From positions 1-59,560 of the forward strand of contig NZ_VJYB01000011.1 of assembly GCF_030400225.1 (NCBI RefSeq): a DNA stretch of 59,560 nt. The letters are read 5' to 3'. Under the pieces are notes generated by a model. That model ran no database searches, had not been told where the DNA came from, and saw only the letters and a program-made list of their open reading frames with translations. Of this stretch, positions 11,672 to 52,955 are shown in pieces. Origin of the DNA: Lactobacillus sp. UCMA15818. GTDB lineage: Bacteria > Bacillota > Bacilli > Lactobacillales > Lactobacillaceae. The translations under genes and the position numbers were made by a program. Numbering within the stretch: position 1 is the stretch's first letter; each line of letters starts with the position of its first letter.

Positions 11672-11797
11672 GAAAATCCTCCTCAAGTGTATGGATAAGA
11701 CCTATACCATTTTTCGATACTACTTTAGATTAATTCTAAATTATGTTTATGGCAACCCTAAAAAGTGTTAAAATTCTTGTCAGAGGGGGAAATCACG

Positions 11798-13327
11798 ATG
11801 AAAACCTATACGGACTATTTCTTTGATGAGCCAGCGTTTGATCTCCACGATGGCGGGTACATGCCGCTTGAGGTCAGTGATGCGCCTGAGAAGCCCTTAA
11901 ATGTGCCGCCGTTGTTGAAACCGGATAAAGAGACGGCGACCGACGTTTATTACACGGTGACAGCAGAGGCTGGGGAAACGCAACTGTTACCTGGGGCGAA
12001 GACCAAGACGTGGGGCTATAATACCAGTCTGTTAGGTCAGACGATTGTGTATCGCCGTGGTCAGCATACGCATGTGACACTGAAAAACACCCTGCCTGAG
12101 TTGACCACTTTTCATTGGCATGGGGCTAATGTCAGTGGCCCTTATGTTGATGGCGGATGCCATGCGCCTGTTTATCCGGGTGAAAGTAAGCATATCGACT
12201 TCACATTGGAACAACCGGCGACGACTTTGTGGCTGCACGCGCATCCGTGCCCATCCACAGCCGAGCAGGTTTGGCATGGTTTGGCTGCCATGGTGATTGT
12301 CAAAGACGACCATGAAGCCAGCCTGCCATTGCCAAGGAACTATGGCGTTGACGATATTCCGGTCATTTTGCAAGACCGGCGTTTTCATGAGAACAACCAG
12401 TGGGACTACCGGGCTGATTATGATCCTGACGGTGTTGCTGGGCCAACTGCAATGATTAACGGTACAATCAATCCCTATTTTGATGTCACCACGCAAAAGG
12501 TCCGGTTGCGTTTTCTGGATGGTGCTAATCGCCGTGAATGGCGGTTGCATTTTTCCGATGACCTGCCATTTACGCAAATTGGCGGGGATGGCTCACTGTT
12601 ACCGGAGCCGGTCAAATTTACCCATTTGATGCTGACTTGTGCTGAGCGTGCCGAAGTGATTGTTGATTTTGGCCAATACCATGAAGGCGACGAGGTCACC
12701 TTATATACGGATGATGTGCCATTGCTAAAGTTCCGCATTCATGCGTTCAAACCGGATCAGACTACCTTGCCTGATAAGTTGTTCGATGTGAAGGCACCAG
12801 TGGTTGACCCGGCTTTGCCAGTTCGCCACGTTGTGATGCAGGGGATGGACGAAGGTGTTGCGATTGATGGTAAAAAGTTTGCCATGCAGCGGATTGATGC
12901 CACTCAACCAATTGGCAAAGCCCAGTACTGGGATGTTACCAATAGCAATGATGCGCCTGGAATGGTTCATCCATTCCATGTGCATGGAACCCAATTCTTA
13001 GTCTTGTCGCGGAATGGGCATGCGCCGTATCCAAATGAACATGGTTTCAAAGATACCGTTGGCGTGAATCCTGGTGAAACGGTTCGGCTGCTGGTTCGCT
13101 TTGATTTGCCAGGGGTTTATATGTATCACTGCCATATCATTGAGCACGAAGATGGCGGTATGATGGCACAGATTGAAACATTCGATCCAGCCAAGCCAAA
13201 GCAAGAATATAAATTGATGGATATGAATACGTTAATGATGGCCTTGGCTAAAGAACGTGGCGTCAAACCATCTGAGATTTGGATGGGCGGTATGCAGTCT
13301 TATGAAAAAATGGGAATGAAAATGTAA
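11798..13327 (+). CDS. Multicopper oxidase (CueO/laccase-like), 509 aa
   Basis: All four copper-ligand motifs are present: FHWHGAN, WLHAHPC, HPFHVHGTQF and the C-terminal YHCHIIEHEDGGMM with the type-1 Cys and axial Met. Three cupredoxin domains fit the length. There is no signal peptide (MKTYTDYFFDEPAF), as in the cytoplasmic oxidases of lactobacilli that have been linked to biogenic-amine degradation and copper tolerance. The ATG at 11798 follows CAGAGGGGGAAATCACG. The MFS gene follows after 39 bp on the same strand. GC is visibly higher than in the flanking IS region, suggesting separate acquisition. Confidence 0.93.
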   Translation: MKTYTDYFFDEPAFDLHDGGYMPLEVSDAPEKPLNVPPLLKPDKETATDVYYTVTAEAGETQLLPGAKTKTWGYNTSLLGQTIVYRRGQHTHVTLKNTLPELTTFHWHGANVSGPYVDGGCHAPVYPGESKHIDFTLEQPATTLWLHAHPCPSTAEQVWHGLAAMVIVKDDHEASLPLPRNYGVDDIPVILQDRRFHENNQWDYRADYDPDGVAGPTAMINGTINPYFDVTTQKVRLRFLDGANRREWRLHFSDDLPFTQIGGDGSLLPEPVKFTHLMLTCAERAEVIVDFGQYHEGDEVTLYTDDVPLLKFRIHAFKPDQTTLPDKLFDVKAPVVDPALPVRHVVMQGMDEGVAIDGKKFAMQRIDATQPIGKAQYWDVTNSNDAPGMVHPFHVHGTQFLVLSRNGHAPYPNEHGFKDTVGVNPGETVRLLVRFDLPGVYMYHCHIIEHEDGGMMAQIETFDPAKPKQEYKLMDMNTLMMALAKERGVKPSEIWMGGMQSYEKMGMKM

Positions 13328-16832: not shown

Positions 16833-16936
16833 ACTTTGACCGGTTATGGGGCGAACTAGTGTTGTTTTAATATCTGCCACCGCCTTTAACGGCTCTACAC
16901 GGGAAGTCCTGTTCACGTGGGACTTCCTTTTTCTTT
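16833..16936. terminator. Distal half of the Fst-toxin hairpin plus a second terminator
   Basis: Directly after the IS3 end, CCGGTTATGGGGCG is the partner of the GCCGCCCC arm left at 15293. A second hairpin, GGAAGTCC...GGACTTCC followed by TTTTT (16902-16936), lies just beyond. In Fst systems the convergent antisense RNA is made from this side. The insertion puts about 1.5 kb between toxin and antisense RNA, unless the promoters lie inside the remaining arm. Confidence 0.55.
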
Positions 16937-16985
16937 TTCGTTATAGCATGACTATGAAAAATTGGGTAGCAAGGCATTTTCAGCT

Positions 16986-32654: not shown

Positions 32655-33950
32655 CTAACCAAAAATCGATAATGATAACCAGAGGCCACATAGGGTAATA
32701 AACAACACTGGGATCGTGGTTACAATTCCAATTTTAAAATAAGTCCCCCATTTAATTTTAACTCCCTTTTGAGCTAACACATGTAGCCAGACTAATGTAG
32801 CCAAAGAGCCAATTGGGGTAATCTTAGGTCCCAAATCTGAGCCGATTATGTTTGCGTACACTAACGTATGATGGATGAGCCCTGAAACGTCAGCGCCTTT
32901 GATTGATAGTGCATTAATCATGACGGTCGGCATGTTATTCATTAATGACGATAAAAGTGCTGCTAAGTAGCCCATGCCCATTGTGGCAGCAAACCGACCA
33001 CCTTTTGCGATTTCGGTAATGACACCTGATAATAATGTTGTTAGACCAACGTTCTGAAGGCCGTAGACTACGACATACATACCGATTGAGAAAAAGACAA
33101 TGTTCCAAGGAGCTCCTTTAATCGCTGCCATCGCATTAACATGGGAACTTCTTTGACCAACTATCAGAAAAATAGCCGCAATACTCAGTGCGATAAAGGA
33201 GACGGGGATTCCTAAGAAACCGCTACTAAAGTAACCAATCAATAGGAGGATTAAGACGACCCATGAAAACTTGAAAAGTCGCTGATCTTTTAGTGCAGAA
33301 CTGGGTTCCGCAACCTGAGTGGCATCAAATTTTCGTGGCAATGCTTTTCGAAAGTAAAGATACAGGATACCAATACTACCTAACAGCGAAAATAGATCAG
33401 GAATCCACATTCTTAACGCATACGCTGAAAAGGAAATTCCAAAAAAGTCTGCAGAGACAATATTTACCAAGTTACTAACAATCATTGGTAAAGAAGTGGT
33501 ATCGGCAATAAAGCCACTGGCAATAATAAAAGGGAAAACTTGCTTTTCATCAAAGTGTAAGGCACGAACCATTGCTAAAACAATGGGGGTAAGAATCAGA
33601 GCAGCCCCATCATTAGCAAAAAGGGCAGCAACGACGGCGCCTAAGGTGGTCACCAAAATAAACATGCGAATACCGTGACCGTTTGCCCAGCGAGCCATGT
33701 GTAAGGCGGCCCATTCAAAAAATCCGATTTGATCTAAAATGAGTGAAATCAGAATAATAGCCACGAAAGATAAGGTGGCATTCCAGACAATTCCGGTAAC
33801 TGTTCCAACATCTTTAAAACTCACCACGCCAAACAATAATGCTAAAATTGCACCACCAACGGCTGTCCATCCAATTGATAATCCTCTAGGTTGCCAGATA
33901 ACGAATAATAATGTGAGTAAGAAAATTCCAACGGCAAAAAAGACTTGCAT
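32655..33950 (-). CDS. arsB: ArsB-type arsenite efflux permease, 431 aa
   Basis: About 12 membrane helices in two repeats. Typical ArsB sequences include [29 protein letters not shown] and [14 protein letters not shown], plus [17 protein letters not shown] near the end. It works alone with the proton gradient or with ArsA as an ATP-driven pump. The gap to arsA is 42 bp on the same strand. Confidence 0.93.
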
Positions 33951-33992
33951 GATACCTCCTAAACTGATTAATTATTTTTTTCCTTTAATTAA

Positions 33993-35726
33993 TTAAACCG
34001 TTAAAAGCGTTTTTTCGTAATTTGGTTGCCATTGCATAACAGCAAAATGATTATTCGAAAGCTCTTTTACCTGATCAATCCATTTAACTTCGCTTTGCAC
34101 TCGAGCCAGCAAACATGGATCAGTGGTTTGAGTTGCCAACATACTTTGGTTGACCACCCACCAAGTATGAGCTAGACTGGCTCGCTTCAAATCGTCATCT
34201 AACCGCATTGATTCATAAACCGGCGTGGCTTCTGGTAGCGTTACCATAACAATTTCAGTTTGCTTAGGATCTTGTAGTCTTGGTAACAGATTAACGACTG
34301 CTTGTGGGACGCTGCCGGAGGTATGGGCAACTTCTTGAGCATAGCTTTGGGTCGAGTTTAACAGTAAGAGTGTATGACCAGTCGGAGCCGTATCAACCAC
34401 AACGACGTCACTATCATTTTGGGCGACTAACTCAGCAAAAGCTCGGAAGACAGCAATTTCTTGAGTACATGGTGAACGCAAATCTTCAGCGACATAATCA
34501 ACATCATTAGACTTCATGGTCTTTTTAGCAGTAGTGAGAACTTCGTTTTGATATTCTTTTAAAGACTTTTTCTCATCAATATGGCTCACCTTGATCAGCG
34601 GACTTGTGATTTTGAAGTATTTCAAATGATCAGCTGGGTCAGTGGTAGCCAAGTGCACGGTTTTGTGTTGAGCAGCTATCTTTTGGGCAATTTGAACGGC
34701 AACGGTTGTTTTACCAACGCCACCTTTGCCCATGGTGAAGATAATTTTTTTATTTGACTGCACTAAATTCTTCACGACAACATCCAGATCAGGAAAGTGA
34801 CTAGCAGTAACCGGTTCCTCAGTGATTTGCGGCTGCTGGTCTTTCAATAGTAGTCGTAAATTAGCTAATCCCAATACGTTGTATGCTCGCAATGGGATTG
34901 CTAACTTGGGTAGCTGGTCTAAAGTGACTGGCATATTCTGCAAATCAGCTTGCTGTTGTTTAAAAATAGTCTGAGAAACTGCGTCGGTTGGCTGATTTAA
35001 GATACCGTTAATGATTAGTTGCTGGTTCTTAATGTTTAAGGCTGCCAACTCATGTGAAGCGCGTTGTGCCTCCAGAAGGGCGCCTTTTTGTGGTCGGGTA
35101 ACTAAAAACAAAGTCGTCGCTTGAGGATTGCCTAAAGTTTCAACCGCTTTTTGATACATAGCTTTCTTATCATTTAAGCCAGCTAGTTGGCCGAGACAGG
35201 ATGCACCACGATCATTCTTATCCAGGTAATTACTCCAAGCAGAAGGCAATTGCAGCATTCTTAAGGTATGGCCGGTCGGCGCGGTATCAAAAATAATATA
35301 GTCAAATTGCTGATTAATCTTGGAACTAGTTAGAAAGTTGGCAAATTCATTAAATGCAGCAATTTCAACCGTACACGAGCCTGATAATTGTTCAGCCATA
35401 TTCTGAATGGCTTCTTTGGGCAACACGCCTCGATAAGGTTGAATAACCTGCTCGCGATACTCGTTCGCAGCAATGACCGGATCAAAGTTGGCAGCAAACA
35501 AACCGGAAATGTTTGGAATCGGCTTTGGCTGATTGGTTAAACTAACTTTAAAAACGTCCTGCAAGTTACTAGCTGGATCAGTGGAAACGATCATAACTCG
35601 GTGACCAGCATCAGCTAAGCTAATTGCAGTGGCACTGGCAACCGTGGTTTTGCCAACCCCACCCTTGCCGGTAAAAAATAGGTACTTGGTTAAATTAATC
35701 TCTTGTGGCGAATACTTTTCCATCAT
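33993..35726 (-). CDS. arsA: ArsA arsenite-stimulated ATPase, 577 aa, two ATPase halves
   Basis: Two tandem P-loop halves: FFTGKGGVGKTTVASA (about 16) and FTMGKGGVGKTTVAVQ (about 330). Each has the DTAPTGHTLR/L signal-transduction motif (about 148 and 450). Metal-site Cys are visible in SGSCTVE and SPCTQE. The full two-domain form pairs with ArsB and ArsD for ATP-driven arsenite export. It starts MMEKYSPQEINLTK after AAGGAGCTGAAAA. An ArsR-type operator lies just upstream (35742-35757). Confidence 0.95.
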   Translation of the reverse strand: MMEKYSPQEINLTKYLFFTGKGGVGKTTVASATAISLADAGHRVMIVSTDPASNLQDVFKVSLTNQPKPIPNISGLFAANFDPVIAANEYREQVIQPYRGVLPKEAIQNMAEQLSGSCTVEIAAFNEFANFLTSSKINQQFDYIIFDTAPTGHTLRMLQLPSAWSNYLDKNDRGASCLGQLAGLNDKKAMYQKAVETLGNPQATTLFLVTRPQKGALLEAQRASHELAALNIKNQQLIINGILNQPTDAVSQTIFKQQQADLQNMPVTLDQLPKLAIPLRAYNVLGLANLRLLLKDQQPQITEEPVTASHFPDLDVVVKNLVQSNKKIIFTMGKGGVGKTTVAVQIAQKIAAQHKTVHLATTDPADHLKYFKITSPLIKVSHIDEKKSLKEYQNEVLTTAKKTMKSNDVDYVAEDLRSPCTQEIAVFRAFAELVAQNDSDVVVVDTAPTGHTLLLLNSTQSYAQEVAHTSGSVPQAVVNLLPRLQDPKQTEIVMVTLPEATPVYESMRLDDDLKRASLAHTWWVVNQSMLATQTTDPCLLARVQSEVKWIDQVKELSNNHFAVMQWQPNYEKTLLTV

Positions 35727-43946: not shown

Positions 43947-43989
43947 AACAAAGTTAAACCCATAGAACCAAAGTGAGAAGGTGACTGAT

Positions 43990-46471: not shown

Positions 46472-46520
46472 GTAAAAGCCCCCGGATGACTAACAGTGAT
46501 TTCGCTAGTCATCCGGGGGA
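46472..46520 (-). terminator. Terminator of the FLP-like regulator gene
   Basis: CCCCCGGATGACTA / TAGTCATCCGGGGG, a 14-bp perfect stem followed on the minus strand by CTTTTACG. Confidence 0.88.
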
Positions 46521-46545: not shown

Positions 46546-47211
46546 TTATTCAGTTAATAATAGCTGGTCGGCATCGTTAATTTCGATGACCTTGCCAGGC
46601 TTTTGCGTAATTAGGCCTTGACGCTCGAATAAGGCGAGCTTACGGCTGATGCTTTCAGGGGTGGTGCCGAGGAACGTCGCCAGGTCCTTTTTCTTTAATG
46701 GTAGTTTAAACGTGTCGGTTTTGAGCGCTGCCGCTGTTTCAGTGATATAGTTCGCTAAACGGGCTTCGACGGATTCAGTGGCCGTGCTGGTTGTTTGACG
46801 TTCCAGTTGACTGAGACGTTTGCCAAAGACGTTTAAGACGTTGATGCTGATACTGGGATATTTTTGCATCAAGTCTTGAAAGTCTGAACGGCGAATACTG
46901 CAAACATCCGTCGTTACTAAGGCTTCACCGAATGAGGTTCGCCGTTGATTTTTAAATAAGGCAGCTTCGCCATCGATATCACCAGTTTGTAATAGGTATA
47001 GTAACTGCTCGCGACCATTGGCAGCTAGCTGATAGACTTTAACCTGCCCATTGGCAACAATCATCAGTGAATCCAGTGGATCGTCAGCACCAAATAAAGT
47101 GCTGCCGGCTGGATAGTGGTGGTGACGAACGATCGATTCGATGGTGTCTAATTGTTCACTACCGAGTTCGCTAAAAATTGGGACTAACTGCACACATTCA
47201 TGTTCTGCCAT
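46546..47211 (-). CDS. Crp/Fnr-family regulator, FLP-like redox sensor, 221 aa
   Basis: Cyclic-nucleotide-binding-type sensor domain (PIFSELGSEQLDTI ... GDIDGEAALF), dimer helix (SINVLNVFGKRLSQLE) and a C-terminal winged HTH with recognition helix TTPESISRKLALFERQG. From the ATG at 47211 (GGAGGTGGGCCTT upstream) Cys occur at 6 and 104. In L. casei FLP, Cys5 and Cys102 form a reversible disulfide that controls DNA binding, so the spacing matches. There is no N-terminal iron-sulfur cluster. It is divergent from the HMA/Dps operon, whose promoter carries an FNR-like box. Confidence 0.88.
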   Translation of the reverse strand: MAEHECVQLVPIFSELGSEQLDTIESIVRHHHYPAGSTLFGADDPLDSLMIVANGQVKVYQLAANGREQLLYLLQTGDIDGEAALFKNQRRTSFGEALVTTDVCSIRRSDFQDLMQKYPSISINVLNVFGKRLSQLERQTTSTATESVEARLANYITETAAALKTDTFKLPLKKKDLATFLGTTPESISRKLALFERQGLITQKPGKVIEINDADQLLLTE

Positions 47212-47336
47212 AAGGCCCACCTCCTGAATAAATTCACCCTAACTATAACAGATTTTGCTTGGTAGATAGGGTTTGACGTTTTAAATTTCCTACTGTTTTA
47301 ATAACTATATTGTAGCGTAAAACTTTTTTGAATTTC

Positions 47337-47378
47337 TTGACGGCCGTCAAGTTCTGATCAATCAAATCCGGTTATGAT
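47337..47378 (+). promoter_or_regulatory. FNR/FLP box and -10 element of the HMA-Dps operon
   Basis: TTGAC-GGCC-GTCAA (47337-47350), a perfect palindrome close to the FNR consensus, is followed by 22 bp and TATGAT (47373-47378). The box centre is therefore about 41.5 bp before the likely transcription start, the class II activator position. The same arrangement occurs before the P-type ATPase. Confidence 0.8.
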
Positions 47379-47414
47379 GGAACCATCAAATGAACGACAC
47401 GGAGGTAATTGATT

Positions 47415-47633
47415 ATGAAAATTATTATGCAATTAGGAACGTTGACTTGCCCATCATGCATGACCAAGATCGAAAAGGCCGTTGCTAACCATGACGGCGT
47501 TGAGAATGTTAAGGTGCTATTCAATGCCAGCAAGGTCAAGGCTAACTTTGATCCTGAAGTGACGAATGCCGATGATTTGGCACAAGTTGTTACCGGACTT
47601 GGTTACGAAGTTGAAAACGTCAAGGTTAAGTAG
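47415..47633 (+). CDS. Heavy-metal-associated (HMA) domain protein, CopZ-like, 72 aa
   Basis: A single HMA fold: MKIIMQLGTLTCPSCMTKIE contains the CxxC site (CPSC, about 12-15), followed by the VENVKVLFNASKVKANFDPE strand-turn pattern. The ATG follows CGGAGGTAATTGATT. Residues around the Cys (TCPSC instead of MTCxHC) differ from classical copper chaperones, so the metal could be another soft ion. It is the first gene of an operon with the Dps-like gene (12-bp gap) and could deliver metal to the ATPase, which lacks its own HMA domain. Confidence 0.88.
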   Translation: MKIIMQLGTLTCPSCMTKIEKAVANHDGVENVKVLFNASKVKANFDPEVTNADDLAQVVTGLGYEVENVKVK

Positions 47634-47645
47634 GAGGAATAAACG

Positions 47646-48200
47646 ATGAGTGAACTGACGATCGACGAACAATACGCAGCGGAATTAAAACAGAGTGACA
47701 TTGATCACCATGTCCCAACAGCGGGCGCAATGACGAATCACATTTTATCTAACTTAATGGTTGCTTATGTTAAGTTGACCCAAGTGAAGTGGTACGTTAA
47801 AGGACCACAATCATTGGCATTGCGGACAGCATATCAACGTTTGTTAGATCAGAATGTCCGTCAGTTTGCTGAATTAGGCGAATTACTCCTAGATGAAAAC
47901 CAGAAGCCATCTTCCACAACGGCTGAATTAACCAAGTATTCCATGTTGGAAGAAAATGGGGCTTTCAAGTATCAATCTGCTGATGAACTCGTGGCTGCAA
48001 CAATCAAGGATTTTGATACGGAAAACCTATTCGTTGACCGGGCTATCAAGCTTGCTGAAAAAGAAACCCGGCCGGCACTGGCGGCTTGGTTAGTTGCTTA
48101 TCGTGGCAGTAACAATTGCAATATTCGGGAATTACAAGCTTATCTTGGTAACGATGCTCGAACTGGTTTGGAGGAAGAAGATGAGGATGACAACGATTAG
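47646..48200 (+). CDS. Dps-like ferritin-fold protein lacking canonical ferroxidase ligands, 184 aa
   Basis: Four-helix Dps/ferritin-like protein (TAGAMTNHILSNLMVAYVKL, WYVKGP, then DENQKPSSTTAE). Canonical Dps uses two His of the H..HW and LH.. motifs plus Asp and Glu. Here the aligned positions are Thr (KLTQVKW), Arg (ALRT) and Ala (QFAELGE), with only the Glu retained. The C-terminus is strongly acidic (GLEEEDEDDND). Related LAB proteins are annotated as DNA starvation proteins. It may bind DNA or protein, or store metal by another route. Co-transcribed with the HMA gene; terminator at 48221. Confidence 0.82.
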   Translation: MSELTIDEQYAAELKQSDIDHHVPTAGAMTNHILSNLMVAYVKLTQVKWYVKGPQSLALRTAYQRLLDQNVRQFAELGELLLDENQKPSSTTAELTKYSMLEENGAFKYQSADELVAATIKDFDTENLFVDRAIKLAEKETRPALAAWLVAYRGSNNCNIRELQAYLGNDARTGLEEEDEDDND

Positions 48201-48220
48201 GTCGTTGTCGCTGAAAAATT

Positions 48221-48269
48221 AAACGCTCTGGATAGCGACTGTGTGGGCAAACTATCCAGGGCGTTTTTG
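48221..48269 (+). terminator. Terminator of the HMA-Dps operon
   Basis: AAACGCTCTGGATAG-loop-CTATCCAGGGCGTTTTTGC, a long stem with T run. Confidence 0.88.
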
Positions 48270-48327
48270 CTATTACAACGGGCCTGCGCTATACTAACGA
48301 CAATTAAATTAATGGGAGAGCCCCGAG

Positions 48328-48516
48328 ATGGCGATTAGCGATATTGTGATGTGGACATTTGTCTTTATTATTGCGACTGGGTTCGTAACGGTGGTTTCAA
48401 CGGCGGTGCTGTTGAAACGAGCAAAACGAGCGCCCAAGGATGCTGAGCAGTCCCACAGTGATGACGACGATGATTGGAACCATGATGACTGGAAAAAGGG
48501 CGATTGGAAAGATTGA
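48328..48516 (+). CDS. Small membrane protein with Asp/Trp-rich tail, 62 aa
   Basis: MAISDIVMWTFVFIIATGFV begins one membrane helix (to about residue 29). A basic KRAKRAPK stop-transfer stretch then leads into a 25-residue tail with SDDDDDWNHDD and WKKGDWKD, i.e. repeated DW units. TGGGAGAGCCCCGAG precedes the ATG. The N-terminus is probably outside and the tail cytoplasmic. Unknown family; divalent-cation binding by the Asp tail is a guess supported only by the metal-rich neighbourhood. Confidence 0.7.
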   Translation: MAISDIVMWTFVFIIATGFVTVVSTAVLLKRAKRAPKDAEQSHSDDDDDWNHDDWKKGDWKD

Positions 48517-48658
48517 CTCGATAAGTTGCCTGACAGATACGATGTTTAACTGCGTCAACTGGTACTAAAAAGACGGTATAACCAAAACTCCACAAGATTC
48601 CAGTACACCTAACAGAATTCACAAAAAGATGATTGCAAATAGAAAGTAGGCAACTTCA

Positions 48659-49123
48659 ATGGGAACTGATTATATAAGGTCTTTGAGAAAAAGTGTTGGA
48701 CACCAACCGATTATTTTAGCATTTTCGGGTGGTATATTAGAAAATGATAAACATGAGATTCTCTTACAAAGACGAACAGATTTTGATGCATGGGGTCTCC
48801 CAGGTGGTGCAATTGAATTTGGCGAGACAGCCCCAGAAGCATGTAAAAGAGAATACCTAGAGGAAACTGGTCTCTCTGTTGAAGTCAATTCTTTACTTGG
48901 AGTCACTACTAATCACATCCAAGAATATCCAAATGGTGATGTTGCACAGGCCGTTGTTATCGAATTTGTTGTGCGGTTAATTGGTGGGCATGAGAATGTG
49001 ACTAGCCCTGAGACAAGCAAGTTGCAATATTTTGCTCAAGGGGATTTACCAGAAATCTTTAATAAACAACATTATCGAAGCATTCAGCGATATTTTGACA
49101 AAAAATTTCCGTATTATGATTAG
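48659..49123 (+). CDS. NUDIX hydrolase, 154 aa
   Basis: The NUDIX box is complete: GGAIEFGETAPEACKREYLE followed by ETGL (about 56-80), with upstream LLQRRTDFDAWGLPGG. It is similar to ADP-ribose or (d)NTP pyrophosphatases; the substrate is not assignable. Start MGTDYIRSLRKSVG after AGAAAGTAGGCAACTTCA. AT-richer than the preceding genes, so possibly a separate insertion in the island. Confidence 0.9.
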   Translation: MGTDYIRSLRKSVGHQPIILAFSGGILENDKHEILLQRRTDFDAWGLPGGAIEFGETAPEACKREYLEETGLSVEVNSLLGVTTNHIQEYPNGDVAQAVVIEFVVRLIGGHENVTSPETSKLQYFAQGDLPEIFNKQHYRSIQRYFDKKFPYYD

Positions 49124-49419
49124 GAAGATTTAAATGAATTTTTTTCATGATATTGTTTCCCAGAAAAGTTTAATCTGTGACTTTGATAGTTACTCTGAGC
49201 AGTTATGGCTTCTTTCGCCGGGTTTAATGGTGGCTTGGAAAGCGTAGATATTTTTGATTTTCTGCACAGAATACTCCGGCTAAGAAAATGTTTATAAGAG
49301 ATCAGAATCATTCATTTTATAGGACAGGCCTGCAAATATAGTGTGAACACATTTGTAGATTTGTGAGAATTCACGAGACGAATGATTGATAAATCTGGAG
49401 CAAAAAATTGTTTTCTTCG
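49124..49419. other. Intergenic tract, no gene recognised
   Basis: A 63-codon minus-strand frame here has no ribosome site or known motif. The tract separates the NUDIX gene from the convergent CstR-like operon. Confidence 0.45.
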
Positions 49420-49467
49420 GAATAAAATAAACCCCCTGAGTTTGGATTTACTCCAGATCAGGGGGTT
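49420..49467. terminator. Terminator of the thioredoxin-CstR operon
   Basis: AACCCCCTGA-loop-TCAGGGGGTT; on the minus strand it is followed by TATTTTATT. It can also stop plus-strand transcripts. Confidence 0.8.
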
Positions 49468-49505
49468 CGCTTTACCGCGAGATTGACGACACCGTCTTTT
49501 TTGCG

Positions 49506-49775
49506 TTATTTGGTTTTTAGCAGTAGATCCAAGGAGTGTTCAAGATTCTGAACATCAGCCGTGGTCATCGCATCTACACAATTATTAATATTACGGGCGA
49601 TGACGAGTTTCATGGCCTTGTCGATACTTGATTTCACTGCTGAAAGTTGAACCAAGACATCTTCGCAAGGACGATTTTCGTCCATCATACGTAAAACGCC
49701 GTCCAGTTGACCAGCCGAGCGTTTCAGCCGGGTCTTGATCTGCTTGCTAGTGACATATTCTTCAGTAGTTGCCAT
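49506..49775 (-). CDS. CsoR/RcnR-family regulator of CstR type, 89 aa
   Basis: Four-helix DUF156 protein (QIKTRLKRSAGQLDGVLRMM). In CsoR, copper is held by Cys-His-Cys (spacing 25 then 4). Here Cys37 and Cys66 are kept (NRPCEDV and NINNCVD), but residue 62 is Asn, so the copper site is missing. Two Cys 29 apart without His is the CstR pattern of persulfide sensors that form di- or trisulfide bridges. It is co-transcribed after thioredoxin (23-bp gap), with a matching operator at 50159. A formaldehyde or other FrmR-type role seems less likely. Confidence 0.82.
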   Translation of the reverse strand: MATTEEYVTSKQIKTRLKRSAGQLDGVLRMMDENRPCEDVLVQLSAVKSSIDKAMKLVIARNINNCVDAMTTADVQNLEHSLDLLLKTK

Positions 49776-49798
49776 GATTCATGATGCCCCCTTCGTAA

Positions 49799-50119
49799 TT
49801 AGGCAAGTGCTTTTTTGAGTTCGGCTTCAAAATCAGGCTTAGGACGTGCTCCGACCATGTGACTGACGACTTGGCCATCTTTCTTAATCAGGAAGGTTGG
49901 AATTCCTTGAACTTGGAATTGACTGGCCGTAGCTTGGTCATGGTCAATGTTCAATGAAACGAAGTTGACCTGATCCTTGTAAGCTGGGTCTTCAGAAAGG
50001 GACTTAAGAATTGGGTCCATCATGCGACATGGTGGGCACCAGTCTGCGCGAAAATCAATAACGGCGATACCAGTATCTGTTTCTTTGGCAAAATCTTGGT
50101 CATGTATTTCTTTAATCAT
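49799..50119 (-). CDS. Thioredoxin with WCPPC active site, 106 aa
   Basis: Complete thioredoxin fold: DFRADWCPPCRMMDPILK (active Cys about 32 and 35), the cis-Pro in QGIPTFLIKKDGQ and a Gly before the last helix. WCPPC replaces the usual WCGPC, which shifts redox potential in known variants. The start MIKEIHDQDFAKE lies after AAGGAGTCATTCAAA. It is first in the operon with the CstR-like sensor, fitting a thiol or persulfide stress role; it could also reduce ArsC. Confidence 0.92.
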   Translation of the reverse strand: MIKEIHDQDFAKETDTGIAVIDFRADWCPPCRMMDPILKSLSEDPAYKDQVNFVSLNIDHDQATASQFQVQGIPTFLIKKDGQVVSHMVGARPKPDFEAELKKALA

Positions 50120-50158
50120 TTTGAATGACTCCTTAGTAATTATTATTCATTAAACAAT

Positions 50159-50173
50159 ATACCCCCTGGGTAT
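50159..50173. promoter_or_regulatory. CsoR/CstR-type operator of the thioredoxin operon
   Basis: ATACCC-CCT-GGGTAT, a perfect inverted repeat 40 bp upstream of the thioredoxin ATG, matches the TACCC...GGGTA operators known for this regulator family. A close copy sits at 26331-26347. Confidence 0.75.
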
Positions 50174-50209
50174 TTATAAGAAAGTTATTTGTCCAGATGT
50201 GACCAGTCC

Positions 50210-50254
50210 TAAAACGGCCCCCCGACTAGCTGGGAAGACTAGTTGGTGGGCCGC
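50210..50254 (-). terminator. Terminator of the P-type ATPase gene
   Basis: On the minus strand CGGCCCACCAACTAG-loop-CTAGTCGGGGGGCCG is followed by TTTTAGG. Confidence 0.78.
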
Positions 50255-50294
50255 TATTGGTGGCTAGGCCTGTAACCAAGTTGGGGAGACTTGA

Positions 50295-52199
50295 TTAAGC
50301 TGTGGCTGCTTGAATGGTTTTAGTTGGTTGGTGCTTGTCGAACCTGGTTTGGAAATTGATTAACCGCATAGCGTTGAAGATAACGGCTAAGATACTAGCT
50401 TCATGGACAAACATCCCACTGGCCATGTAGATATAACCGAAGATTAGCCCAATCAGTAGGAAGGCCACGGTGGCAATGGCGATGAAGATGTTTTCACGAG
50501 TGTTCGAGACAGTTTTCTTGGCGAGACCGTGGGCGTGTACTAATGCGGGGAAGCTTGATTGCATCAAGACGACATCGGATGTGTCGATGGCAACATCAGT
50601 CCCACTACCCATTGCGATTCCGATATCGGCGTTAGCGATTGAAGGACTGTCGTTGATTCCATCTCCAATAAAGGCGACCGTGTTACCGGCTGCTTTTAGT
50701 TTCTTAACGTATTCGACTTTTTCTTCTGGCAAGAGGTTGGCGTGAACTTCATCTAGGTTCAATTCGTTAGCAACGGCTTGAGCGGTGAGTTCATTGTCTC
50801 CAGTTAGCATAATGAGCTTTTTGATTCCTTGGGCTTTTAATGCGGCGAGGGAATCCTTCACGCCTGGACGAATCGTATCGGCAATACCGAAGATGAGTTG
50901 AACTTGTCCGTCGACTGCCATGATAACGGTTGATTGACCAACAGCTTGTAAATCATTGAGATCTTTGAGTTGGGTAGGATTTAGTTTGATATTATGAGCT
51001 GTCAACATCTTTTGATTACCAATGACAACTTCTTGCTTACCGACTTGTGCGCAGATTCCTTGGCCCTTAACGGTTTCAGTGTCATCTAGGACGGGAGCAC
51101 CCCCCGCTGACTGCTGGTCGGCATAACTGGCGATTGCTTGGCCTAACGGATGGTCGGAAACCCCCTCAATAGCGGCGGCGATAGCTAGTTGATTATCCGC
51201 ATTGTTTGTGTAAGTGTGCATGGTTGTAACGGCAGTGTTACCTTCCGTTAAAGTACCGGTCTTATCGAAGACCAGGGTATCGACTTTGGCAAAAGTATCG
51301 ACGACTTCACCACCCTTGATCAGGATACCGCGCTTGGCGCCATTCCCAATTCCGGCAACGTTTGACACTGGGGCGCCGATAACTAAGGCACCTGGGCAAC
51401 CGAGAACTAGTACAGTGATTGCTAAGCGGAAGTCACGGGAGAAGGCGAAGACTAGGACTGCTAAAACGAGGACAGCAGGCGTATAATATTGAGCAAAGCG
51501 GTCGATGAACTTTTCAGCTTTGGACTTGGTATCTTGAGCTTCTTCAACCAATTCAATAATTTTTGCAAAAGTCGTGTCGTCGCCAACCTGAGTCGCTTTG
51601 ATCTTCAGATAGCCATTTTCAACCATTGTTCCGGAGTAAACCGAGTCCTTGAGTTGCTTGTTGATTTGGCGTGCTTCACCCGTAATTGAGGCTTCGTTAA
51701 GGTAGCCGTTACCTTCAACAACAATCCCGTCAACGGGAACCTGACTCCCGGTTTTAACTAGGACAACGTCACCTTCGTCCACATCATCAACGTCGACCTC
51801 TTCGGTGCCATCATCAGTAACTAAAGTTGCGGTAGTTGGTGACATGTCAGTCAAGCCTTTGATTGCGGTCCGCGTCTTCTGCAAGGTCTTGTTTTCGAGA
51901 TAGGAGCCAAACAAGAAGAGGAAAGTAACGATTGCGGATTCGTTGAATTCACCAATAATGAATGCCCCAATCACTGCGATACTAACTAACAGTTCAATAC
52001 TGAAAACTTTGTTCCGAAGTGCGCTCCAAGCACGAACCGCAATCGGAATGACGGCAATAATTGAAGCAACTGCTAAAATGACTTGGTAACCGAGCGTAAA
52101 TTGTAAGAGATATTTACTGAGCATCCCAAGAACAATCAGAATCCCCGTAACTAATGTAATTTGATTCGTATGTTTAGTGAGAAATAATTGGAATTTCAT
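50295..52199 (-). CDS. P1B-type heavy-metal ATPase with unusual CPG motif, 634 aa
   Basis: Actuator loop SITGEA, phosphorylation site DKTGTLT, SDHPLGQ (HP motif) and GDGINDSPS hinge are present, with about eight membrane helices. There is no N-terminal HMA domain. The ion-path motif in helix 6 is GCPGAL (others have CPC, SPC or CPH), and helix 8 carries HEASILAVIFNAMRLI, nearest to the HEGS-type motif of P1B-4 pumps for Co, Fe or Zn. The ATG at 52199 after AAGGAGTTGCAAATT. An FNR-like box lies at 52261. It probably exports an excess transition metal; the ion cannot be fixed. Confidence 0.9.
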   Translation of the reverse strand: MKFQLFLTKHTNQITLVTGILIVLGMLSKYLLQFTLGYQVILAVASIIAVIPIAVRAWSALRNKVFSIELLVSIAVIGAFIIGEFNESAIVTFLFLFGSYLENKTLQKTRTAIKGLTDMSPTTATLVTDDGTEEVDVDDVDEGDVVLVKTGSQVPVDGIVVEGNGYLNEASITGEARQINKQLKDSVYSGTMVENGYLKIKATQVGDDTTFAKIIELVEEAQDTKSKAEKFIDRFAQYYTPAVLVLAVLVFAFSRDFRLAITVLVLGCPGALVIGAPVSNVAGIGNGAKRGILIKGGEVVDTFAKVDTLVFDKTGTLTEGNTAVTTMHTYTNNADNQLAIAAAIEGVSDHPLGQAIASYADQQSAGGAPVLDDTETVKGQGICAQVGKQEVVIGNQKMLTAHNIKLNPTQLKDLNDLQAVGQSTVIMAVDGQVQLIFGIADTIRPGVKDSLAALKAQGIKKLIMLTGDNELTAQAVANELNLDEVHANLLPEEKVEYVKKLKAAGNTVAFIGDGINDSPSIANADIGIAMGSGTDVAIDTSDVVLMQSSFPALVHAHGLAKKTVSNTRENIFIAIATVAFLLIGLIFGYIYMASGMFVHEASILAVIFNAMRLINFQTRFDKHQPTKTIQAATA

Positions 52200-52232
52200 A
52201 ATTTGCAACTCCTTATTTGATTTGATGACCCT

Positions 52233-52274
52233 AGTATAGTGAGTTCAGCTTGATGGCAACTTGATAGGCGTCAA
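52233..52274 (-). promoter_or_regulatory. FNR/FLP box and -10 element of the P-type ATPase
   Basis: On the minus strand TTGAC-GCCT-ATCAA (52274-52261), 22 bp, then TATACT (52238-52233). Box-to--10 spacing is identical to that at 47337, placing the box at about -41.5. This is good evidence for common control by the FLP-like regulator. Confidence 0.8.
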
Positions 52275-52404: not shown

Positions 52405-52955
52405 AAAATTGCTTAGTTGGCGCGTCCTACACCGACTTCCAGGAATTTCTGCCAATTGCTGGAACGCGGTGGACACAGATTTAAGCCGAAGACCACGTCT
52501 TAAATACTGGTCTTCCACTAACCAAGCCAAGGACGCTTGCTAAGTGGAATTTCACCGCTGAGCATTGGCCGAAACGCCTTCCAGTCGGGACAGTGTTCGA
52601 ATGGCGGACAAAGATGTACCTAACATTTGATGGCTTTGTCGTTGCTTTTCATAACCGGTAATTGTGTCAATCGACTGTCAGACTGAAATTGATATTGAGA
52701 TAACTCACTAATTCTGAATCAGCGTAGTAAGATTTAATCTCCCGACAAAGTGCTAATGCACCTAACACTTTGTTTAAAGTTCCAGTATCAAAATAGTCAA
52801 CGATAAATTGCGCTAAGTTCGGTGGTTGTTTATCAGCCATTCGAGCGGCTTACCGAAACGTGCTCGGTGCCACTGAAGCCTGCGTTAGCTCAAATCGACG
52901 TCGGCTTACGTTCCAGCAATTGGCACCCAGCCCAGGAAGTCGGCATAGGACGCAC
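52405..52955. repeat. Imperfect long inverted repeat in a non-coding tract
   Basis: A segment at about 52420-52475 (GCGTCCTACACCGACTTCC, then CCAATTGCTGGAACG) recurs inverted at about 52904-52955 (CCAGCAATTGG ... GGAAGTCGGCATAGGACGC). Between the arms lies a 57-codon minus-strand frame. The layout suggests a chromosomal intergenic repeat or a mobile cassette carried onto the plasmid. Confidence 0.6.
52667..52840 (-). CDS. Possible small protein inside the inverted repeat, 57 aa
   Basis: Starts MADKQPPNLAQFIVDYFDTG and continues NKVLGALALCREIKSYYADS, ending in TVD. Composition is protein-like, with helices. No clear ribosome site lies before the ATG, and no family is recognised. It may be the 3' remnant of a longer gene cut by the repeat. 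Confidence 0.35.
   Translation of the reverse strand: MADKQPPNLAQFIVDYFDTGTLNKVLGALALCREIKSYYADSELVSYLNINFSLTVD

Follow-up and report, generated by a model that had tools for sequence, protein, structure and literature searches.

A predicted FLP regulon of metal-transport genes in Lactobacillus sp. UCMA15818 and related Lactobacillales

The DNA analysed here (the window) is the whole 59,560-base contig NZ_VJYB01000011.1 of Lactobacillus sp. UCMA15818, and the subject is an island on it in which flp, encoding a CRP/FNR-family regulator of the FLP type, is found with genes for a P1B-type ATPase, an HMA metal-binding protein and a Dps-like protein. These genes very probably form a regulon in which FLP reads a conserved box, in a class II promoter architecture, ahead of the ATPase gene and of HMA(-Dps), and probably also ahead of flp. 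The first-pass annotation had proposed such a regulon from two boxes in the window, and for these predicted targets it has strong support from the conservation of the boxes, the constant 22-bp distance, the association of the genes within loci and across genomes, and a recognition helix of the FNR type. A conserved FLP regulon serving as a metal-export switch is, with good confidence, the best explanation of the predictions as a whole. The boxes, their spacing and conservation, the gene associations and the protein motifs are observed directly in the DNA and its translations.

Operator boxes and promoter geometry

Each of the two boxes in the window is separated by exactly 22 bases from a -10 element: TTGAC-GGCC-GTCAA (box 1) from the TATGAT that precedes the HMA start codon, and TTGAC-GCCT-ATCAA (box 2) from the TATACT that precedes the ATPase start codon (coordinates in Table 1). 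With the last base of the -10 element taken as -7, both box centres fall at about -41.5; the spacing and the position had both been claimed at the outset, and both were borne out. On both strands of the window, exact TTGACNNNNRTCAA occurred three times at two places against 0.54 expected, and three was reached in 6 of 200 shuffles. The box (Y allowed) followed by 22 bp and TANNNT gave three matches against 0.02 expected, a number reached in none of 200 shuffles. The third of these composite matches, overlooked in the first-pass annotation, is a TACAAT exactly 22 bp from box 1 on the flp side. The box alone with one mismatch allowed was not significant in the window (19 matches against 12.4 expected, reached by 7 of 100 shuffles). 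In a sigma-70 scan, neither the HMA nor the ATPase -10 element was the end of any predicted promoter. The sole zero-mismatch match to the extended palindrome AACTTGAY-N4-RTCAAGTT in the 2.58 Mb assembly was box 2, at the ATPase promoter; the HMA site differs from this palindrome at two positions.

Across the same assembly, the box with TANNNT at 21–23 bp was matched seven times (three of them in the window) against six for a reversed-pattern control, a result that counts against the regulon. Because of these numbers the organism's own genome is no proof of the pattern, and the evidence is comparative. Further targets from the own-genome search were rejected as background. Matches to the pattern outnumbered the control in all ten genomes of a hand-picked set; few of the sites were inspected, and there may be more targets in these genomes.

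Sister islands of about 81% identical DNA were found on Lactiplantibacillus and Leuconostoc plasmids. Their promoters have drifted, with box and -10 element kept and with variation at the central positions and at the half-site C/T. In the loci from the window, the plasmids and the named genomes, 65 of 67 HMA and 55 of 57 ATPase genes have the perfect core TTGAY-N4-RTCAA upstream. Kinship among most of the loci, and near-identity of some rows, make this and the other counts overstate independence. Loci L007–L046, which are duplicates or pattern matches, were excluded from the box counts here and in the larger pool and from the spacing, motif and Dps-ligand counts. Within 260 bp upstream in a larger pool, the perfect core was present at 105/112 HMA, 114/127 ATPase, 28/105 flp and 7/97 Dps genes, the last usually standing behind HMA in an operon; shuffle controls gave at most 0.003 per promoter. 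A search of related genomes for the box at -41.5 had been suggested as a check. Run on distinct HMA and ATPase promoters with a perfect core, it gave a TANNNT exactly 22 bp away for 194 of the 199, and at 21 or 23 bp for none. Alignment of 191 promoters gave the consensus AAACTTGAY-N4-RTCAAKTT followed by a -10 of TAnaaT/TAnacT, and nothing resembling TTGACA in the -35 columns. Centred at -41.5 from a predicted start and lacking a -35 consensus, this is by sequence the class II CRP/FNR arrangement.

The module consists of flp and the ATPase, HMA and Dps genes. In 1.42 Mb of fetched loci, 145 of 166 composite sites precede module genes, and by our own reading 19 of the remaining 21 are the same palindromes in the reverse direction. 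The Listeria plasmid L247 carries dps, flp, hma and atp as four units, each with its own box and -10 element, and in the five tandem-HMA Lactiplantibacillus loci (L060–L064) each HMA gene has its own box. In Paucilactobacillus G002, flp stands alone (L027) and the ATPase locus, elsewhere in the genome, has a box. Among 295 genomes of the order, each of the 30 best ATPase loci, one of them that of the window, has the perfect core upstream, and 33 of 40 further ATPase loci down the list have it within 420 bp.

The palindrome of box 1 probably serves both divergent promoters, those of flp and HMA, and flp is itself probably a target, as the positions of these elements suggest. Of 31 boxes located in the 420 bp ahead of flp, 26 have a -10 element facing flp at 22 bp, most of them of the divergent Lactiplantibacillus type. 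Autoregulation is favoured because separate boxes precede flp in L247 and L251. Weighing against it, 14 Companilactobacillus HMA palindromes also have a TAATCT at 22 bp on a side with no gene start, and a sigma-70 match of shuffle level (TTCAAA-17-TATAGT, ending at 47304) overlaps the -10 element facing flp.

Regulator, gene neighbourhood and target proteins

The FLP protein combines a cNMP-binding-like domain (PF00027) with a Crp-type HTH (PF13545), as in the FLP type. Cys6 and Cys104 are its only cysteines and, given the start ATG at 47211 (MAEHEC...), are 98 residues apart, as had been noted. In an alignment of 88 FLP rows, Cys6 was present in 87 and Cys104 in 86, the remainder being gaps, and exactly two cysteines, the FLP-type number, were found in 78. 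The recognition helix in the window reads E-S-I-S-R, and its E, S and R are each present in 86 of the 88 rows, matching the FNR-type pattern E-x-x-S-R. The four cysteines by which FNR holds a [4Fe-4S] cluster are absent, there being two in FLP. A structural model of FLP has the CRP/FNR fold with a mean pLDDT (predicted local distance difference test) of 83.

A search with the FLP alignment gave 80 named loci. Within the fetched stretch, one or more other module genes lie near flp in 60 of these loci and all four module genes are present in 52. The Lactiplantibacillus assemblies have the same gene set as the window, Companilactobacillus has ATPase-HMA-Dps-flp in one direction, and in Pediococcus flp is mostly convergent to a nearby Dps gene; further FLP loci were found in Enterococcus, Staphylococcus, Weissella and Leuconostoc. 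In genomes G071 and G258 the contigs with flp measure 2.4 and 3.2 Mb, which makes the gene chromosomal there. The order-wide search of the 295 genomes found the ATPase in 118 and FLP in 124: 117 genomes have both, one has the ATPase only, seven have FLP only and 170 have neither (Fisher p 1.6e-72, ignoring kinship). The module is thus not peculiar to this contig: many Lactobacillales and some Bacillales have it. On the Staphylococcus equorum plasmid L250 (1–2486), the FLP module adjoins the annotated persulfide genes cstR, cstA and cstB. In Listeria and Enterococcus plasmids the module is adjoined by fetB, annotated as an iron exporter; fetB was rejected there as a direct target, having no box.

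The ATPase has no N-terminal metal-binding domain. In its fourth transmembrane helix (TM4), CPG was found in all 57 rows with residues, in place of the SPC of P1B-4 pumps; a looser pattern found CPG in 30/30 of the best order-wide loci and 39/40 of the further loci, and a stricter text pattern over 70 sequences gave CPG in 64, CPW in one and no match in five. In TM6, HExS was present in 59/59 and in 69/70 more distant ATPases, as in the HEGS(T)-type motif of P1B-4 pumps; the window sequence is HEAS, and the Gly of HEGS(T) is not kept. PMC7012047 characterizes P1B-4 pumps, which export Fe(II)/Co(II), by SPC and HEGST. Judged by these motifs, the ATPase is P1B-4-like in TM6 only and is not classed as P1B-4. 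The HMA protein has CPSC in 67 of 67 rows.

The Dps-like protein belongs by sequence relationship to the DpsA/DpsB branch of the Dps superfamily, with E values of 1.2e-36 and 1.1e-28 to Lactococcus lactis DpsA and DpsB and a next match at 1.7e-9. The canonical ferroxidase ligands of Dps proteins are H, H, D and E. At these positions, aligned via Bacillus subtilis MrgA (2chp), the window protein has T45, R60, A75 and E79, three of the four being replaced, and the complete set was found in 5 of 65 module Dps proteins. From these residues, a normal ferroxidase function is unlikely.

The island also holds a small open reading frame (ORF), a NUDIX ORF, a CsoR-like gene and a thioredoxin gene, and a MobA-like relaxase ORF, identified by reading its translation, lies on the contig at 43981–46050. 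The small ORF (62 aa, one likely membrane helix) adjoins the module in Lactiplantibacillus loci; it had no Pfam or NCBIfam match and no box of its own, and among promoters of such ORFs the core box was found in 0/27. The NUDIX ORF lies within the island at 48659–49123. Sister plasmids L001–L004 have instead a PbsX-family gene between thioredoxin and ATPase, and L001, L003 and L004 also have an aquaporin gene there. The CsoR-like repressor gene (49506–49775) adjoins the thioredoxin gene, and a ATACCCCCTGGGTAT palindrome (50159–50173) lies upstream of both. The metal site of the repressor, by eye, is Cys-Asn-Cys, where CsoR itself has Cys-His-Cys, which would make it CstR-like. Both genes were rejected as FLP targets, with the core box at 0/30 thioredoxin genes and at 2/30 CsoR-like genes, neither with a -10 element at 22 bp. 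The pair seems independent of FLP and is probably a separately controlled unit.

In L234 and L240, two genomes from different genera, genes that by eye resemble pyruvate oxidase are preceded by a perfect box of the FLP type and its -10 element at 22 bp, the box in L234 being more than 400 bp from the gene. Pyruvate oxidase was rejected as a conserved target, with a perfect core at 2 of 30 promoters and a -10 element in one of these.

Upstream of the ATPase promoter is an inverted repeat (52422–52466 and 52909–52953; 45 nt, 82% complementary, 442 nt apart). A scan of the whole contig against Rfam gave RatA, an RNA antitoxin, as the sole match at the gathering threshold (16855–16943, minus strand; 66.2 bits, gathering score 49). 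The translations at 11765–13327 and 32655–35726 resemble, by eye, a multicopper oxidase and an ArsB/ArsA-like pair, and the contig may have further metal or metalloid functions.

Table 1. Features of the predicted FLP regulon in the window
Feature	Position	Strand	Description
Probable intrinsic terminator after flp	46479–46519	-	17-pair stem
flp	46546–47211	-	CRP/FNR-family regulator, FLP type, 221 aa; domain matches cNMP_binding, HTH_Crp_2
-10-like TACAAT toward flp	47309–47314	-	exactly 22 bp from box 1
Box 1	47337–47350		TTGACGGCCGTCAA, perfect palindrome between flp and HMA
-10 TATGAT, HMA-Dps promoter	47373–47378	+	22 bp from box 1
HMA metal-binding protein	47415–47633	+	72 aa, CPSC motif, PF00403, soluble metallochaperone type
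Dps-like protein	47646–48200	+	184 aa; nearest solved structures L. lactis DpsA/DpsB
Small predicted membrane ORF	48328–48516	+	acidic D/W/H-rich tail; module membership uncertain
P1B-type ATPase	50295–52199	-	634 aa; CPG in TM4, HEAS in TM6 (helix numbers by homology)
-10 TATACT, ATPase promoter	52233–52238	-	22 bp from box 2
Box 2	52261–52274	-	TTGACGCCTATCAA; flanked version AACTTGAC-GCCT-ATCAAGTT

Proposed mechanism and alternative explanations

The island would be a complete mobile copy of the conserved FLP regulon. A two-cysteine FLP dimer of the CRP/FNR type would bind AAACTTGAY-N4-RTCAAKTT and, from the fixed class II position at about -41.5, activate promoters that have no -35 element. 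It would act on the P1B ATPase gene and the HMA-Dps operon, and probably also on flp by way of the box 1 palindrome used in reverse. The products would act jointly on a transition metal, with HMA as carrier and the ATPase as exporter, and the Dps-like protein would bind DNA, metal or both. We infer the binding, the activation, the redox signal, the metal and this division of labour from the genes and sites described above. Metal export is likely to be the purpose of the regulon. The likeliest ions would be iron(II), cobalt or zinc, with iron favoured because of the TM6 motif, the Dps-like protein and the neighbouring fetB of the Listeria and Enterococcus plasmids. Activation would most likely come from a Cys6-Cys104 disulfide formed under oxidative stress, as is reported for the FLP of Lactobacillus casei; we lean slightly towards this signal, the evidence for it consisting in the conservation of the two cysteines.

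Several observations weigh against parts of this explanation. In the fetched stretches of 20 of the 80 named FLP loci, flp was the only module gene. Genome G022 has the ATPase and a box with no FLP match, and seven genomes have FLP with no ATPase. A perfect core was absent from 7 of the 40 further ATPase loci, three of these having a Dps or HMA gene immediately ahead of them in the same orientation, two having HMA downstream and two neither, and some of the 33 boxes found are more than 300 bp away. The lack of a box at fetB in the Listeria and Enterococcus plasmids makes the link to iron one of association only. The Cys6 end of the FLP model is of low confidence (residues 1–10, mean pLDDT 59). 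For L. lactis, PMC3547956 reports that flpA and flpB are preceded by another motif, and the FlpA site proposed there is absent ahead of flpB.

By family assignment the core targets are metal proteins, and Cys6 and Cys104, seldom joined by a further cysteine, are conserved, so FLP might read the boxes and sense metal directly through these cysteines and other ligands, with no redox switch. In the window FLP, His4 lies near Cys6, and several acidic residues are at least 90% conserved. A His4-Cys6-Cys104 metal site was rejected, as His4 occurs in just 36 of the 88 rows and histidine conservation nowhere reaches 90%. The L. casei FLP is reported to be a redox switch, and direct metal sensing appears unlikely. 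Sensing of oxygen through an FNR-like iron-sulfur cluster, with the genes on anaerobically or at an oxygen shift, we hold to be quite improbable. The fold would allow it, Aliivibrio fischeri FNR coming first when the FLP model was compared with the PDB and CRPs scoring nearly as high, and PMC5039431 describes an oxygen-labile cluster with non-cysteinyl ligands in L. lactis FlpA. FLP has two cysteines 98 apart against the FNR set of four, and metal export and Dps are atypical as anaerobic functions. By analogy with the FlpA cluster described in PMC5039431, the signal may still be something other than a disulfide.

A different reader of the boxes, some other cellular CRP/FNR paralogue to which the adjacent flp is incidental, is highly improbable. 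There are other candidates in the genome (seven in a first look, one match at E≤1e-40), the half-sites are common to CRP/FNR proteins, and the flp-only loci and G022 would fit such a regulator; the neighbourhood of the genes in 60 of 80 loci, the co-occurrence of FLP with the ATPase and the boxes on flp's own promoter all speak for FLP. That the boxes match through plain similarity of related islands, and are not selected sites, is close to refuted. Many of the loci are related, and the sister plasmids are about 81% identical, yet box and -10 element stay where the four bases at the centre and much the greater part of the spacer change, and the same geometry recurs ahead of different genes and under different gene orders.

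With a conserved FLP regulon preferred on these grounds, a broader reading can be put forward tentatively, at somewhat less than even confidence. The ancestral and main job of FLP across the Lactobacillales may be that of a dedicated, self-activating metal-export switch and not anaerobic metabolism, with an undescribed CPG subclass of P1B pumps as core target, a separate HMA chaperone, a Dps mostly without ferroxidase centre as DNA shield or metal buffer, and a circuit that moves on plasmids between genera. The analysis provides a testable FLP regulon with a defined operator, a fixed promoter geometry, few core targets and probable autoregulation. It also singles out a group of P1B ATPases with the CPG motif and a Dps branch that seemingly lacks, for the most part, the usual iron-oxidation site. 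The module travels on plasmids, both among food bacteria and into Listeria, Enterococcus and Staphylococcus, and because of this spread its function bears on the stress survival of starters and food-borne bacteria.

Comparison with known systems

The FLP proteins of lactic acid bacteria have, to our knowledge, been known since the 1990s with no agreed regulon. The window FLP is like that of L. casei in its CRP/FNR fold, two cysteines and FNR-like recognition helix; the cysteine spacing in L. casei, from the work of Gostick et al. in 1998, is reportedly about 97. We know of no regulon of the present kind for it. On two L. lactis plasmids the ATPase is followed by HMA-Dps-flp. ATPase and HMA are preceded there by the same boxes, each with its -10 element at 22 bp, and one plasmid's Dps closely resembles the solved DpsA (DpsA/DpsB structures 1zs3/1zuj). 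The window differs from these plasmids in that flp is divergent from HMA-Dps, with one palindrome common to both. The flpA and flpB operons of L. lactis, the subject of Gostick 1999 and Scott 2000, reportedly have three genes each with the flp gene last, and the plasmid order HMA-Dps-flp fits such operons ending in flp.

Published accounts bear on several parts of the system. In PMC5039431, expression of a dps-like gene (dpr) is changed in an flpS mutant of Streptococcus suis. The Listeria plasmid pLM58 has, in a gene table in PMC5663981, a Dps, a Crp/Fnr regulator, a copper chaperone and a P-type ATPase in a row; the table, in the part of the source available, is annotation and proposes no regulon, boxes or function. 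The P1B-4 exporters PfeT, PmtA and FrvA, as covered in PMC7012047, are like the window pump in their HEGS-type TM6 motif and in a link to oxidative stress. The window pump is unlike them in having CPG and not SPC in TM4, an FLP box in place of PerR or Fur control, and a separate HMA protein. In open-access literature, judged by title and the start of the abstract, no description of the whole regulon was found. The reconstruction of Ravcheev et al. 2013 for lactic acid bacteria (PMC3616900) places the FlpA regulon under metal homeostasis, and the likeness to the window is that of an FLP-type regulator filed under that heading. The module had first been taken as little described, which this 2013 entry (PMC3616900) contradicts for the kind of regulon as such. 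What is added here is its order-wide definition, the fixed geometry, an operator that probably works in both directions, and a core target in the CPG pump.

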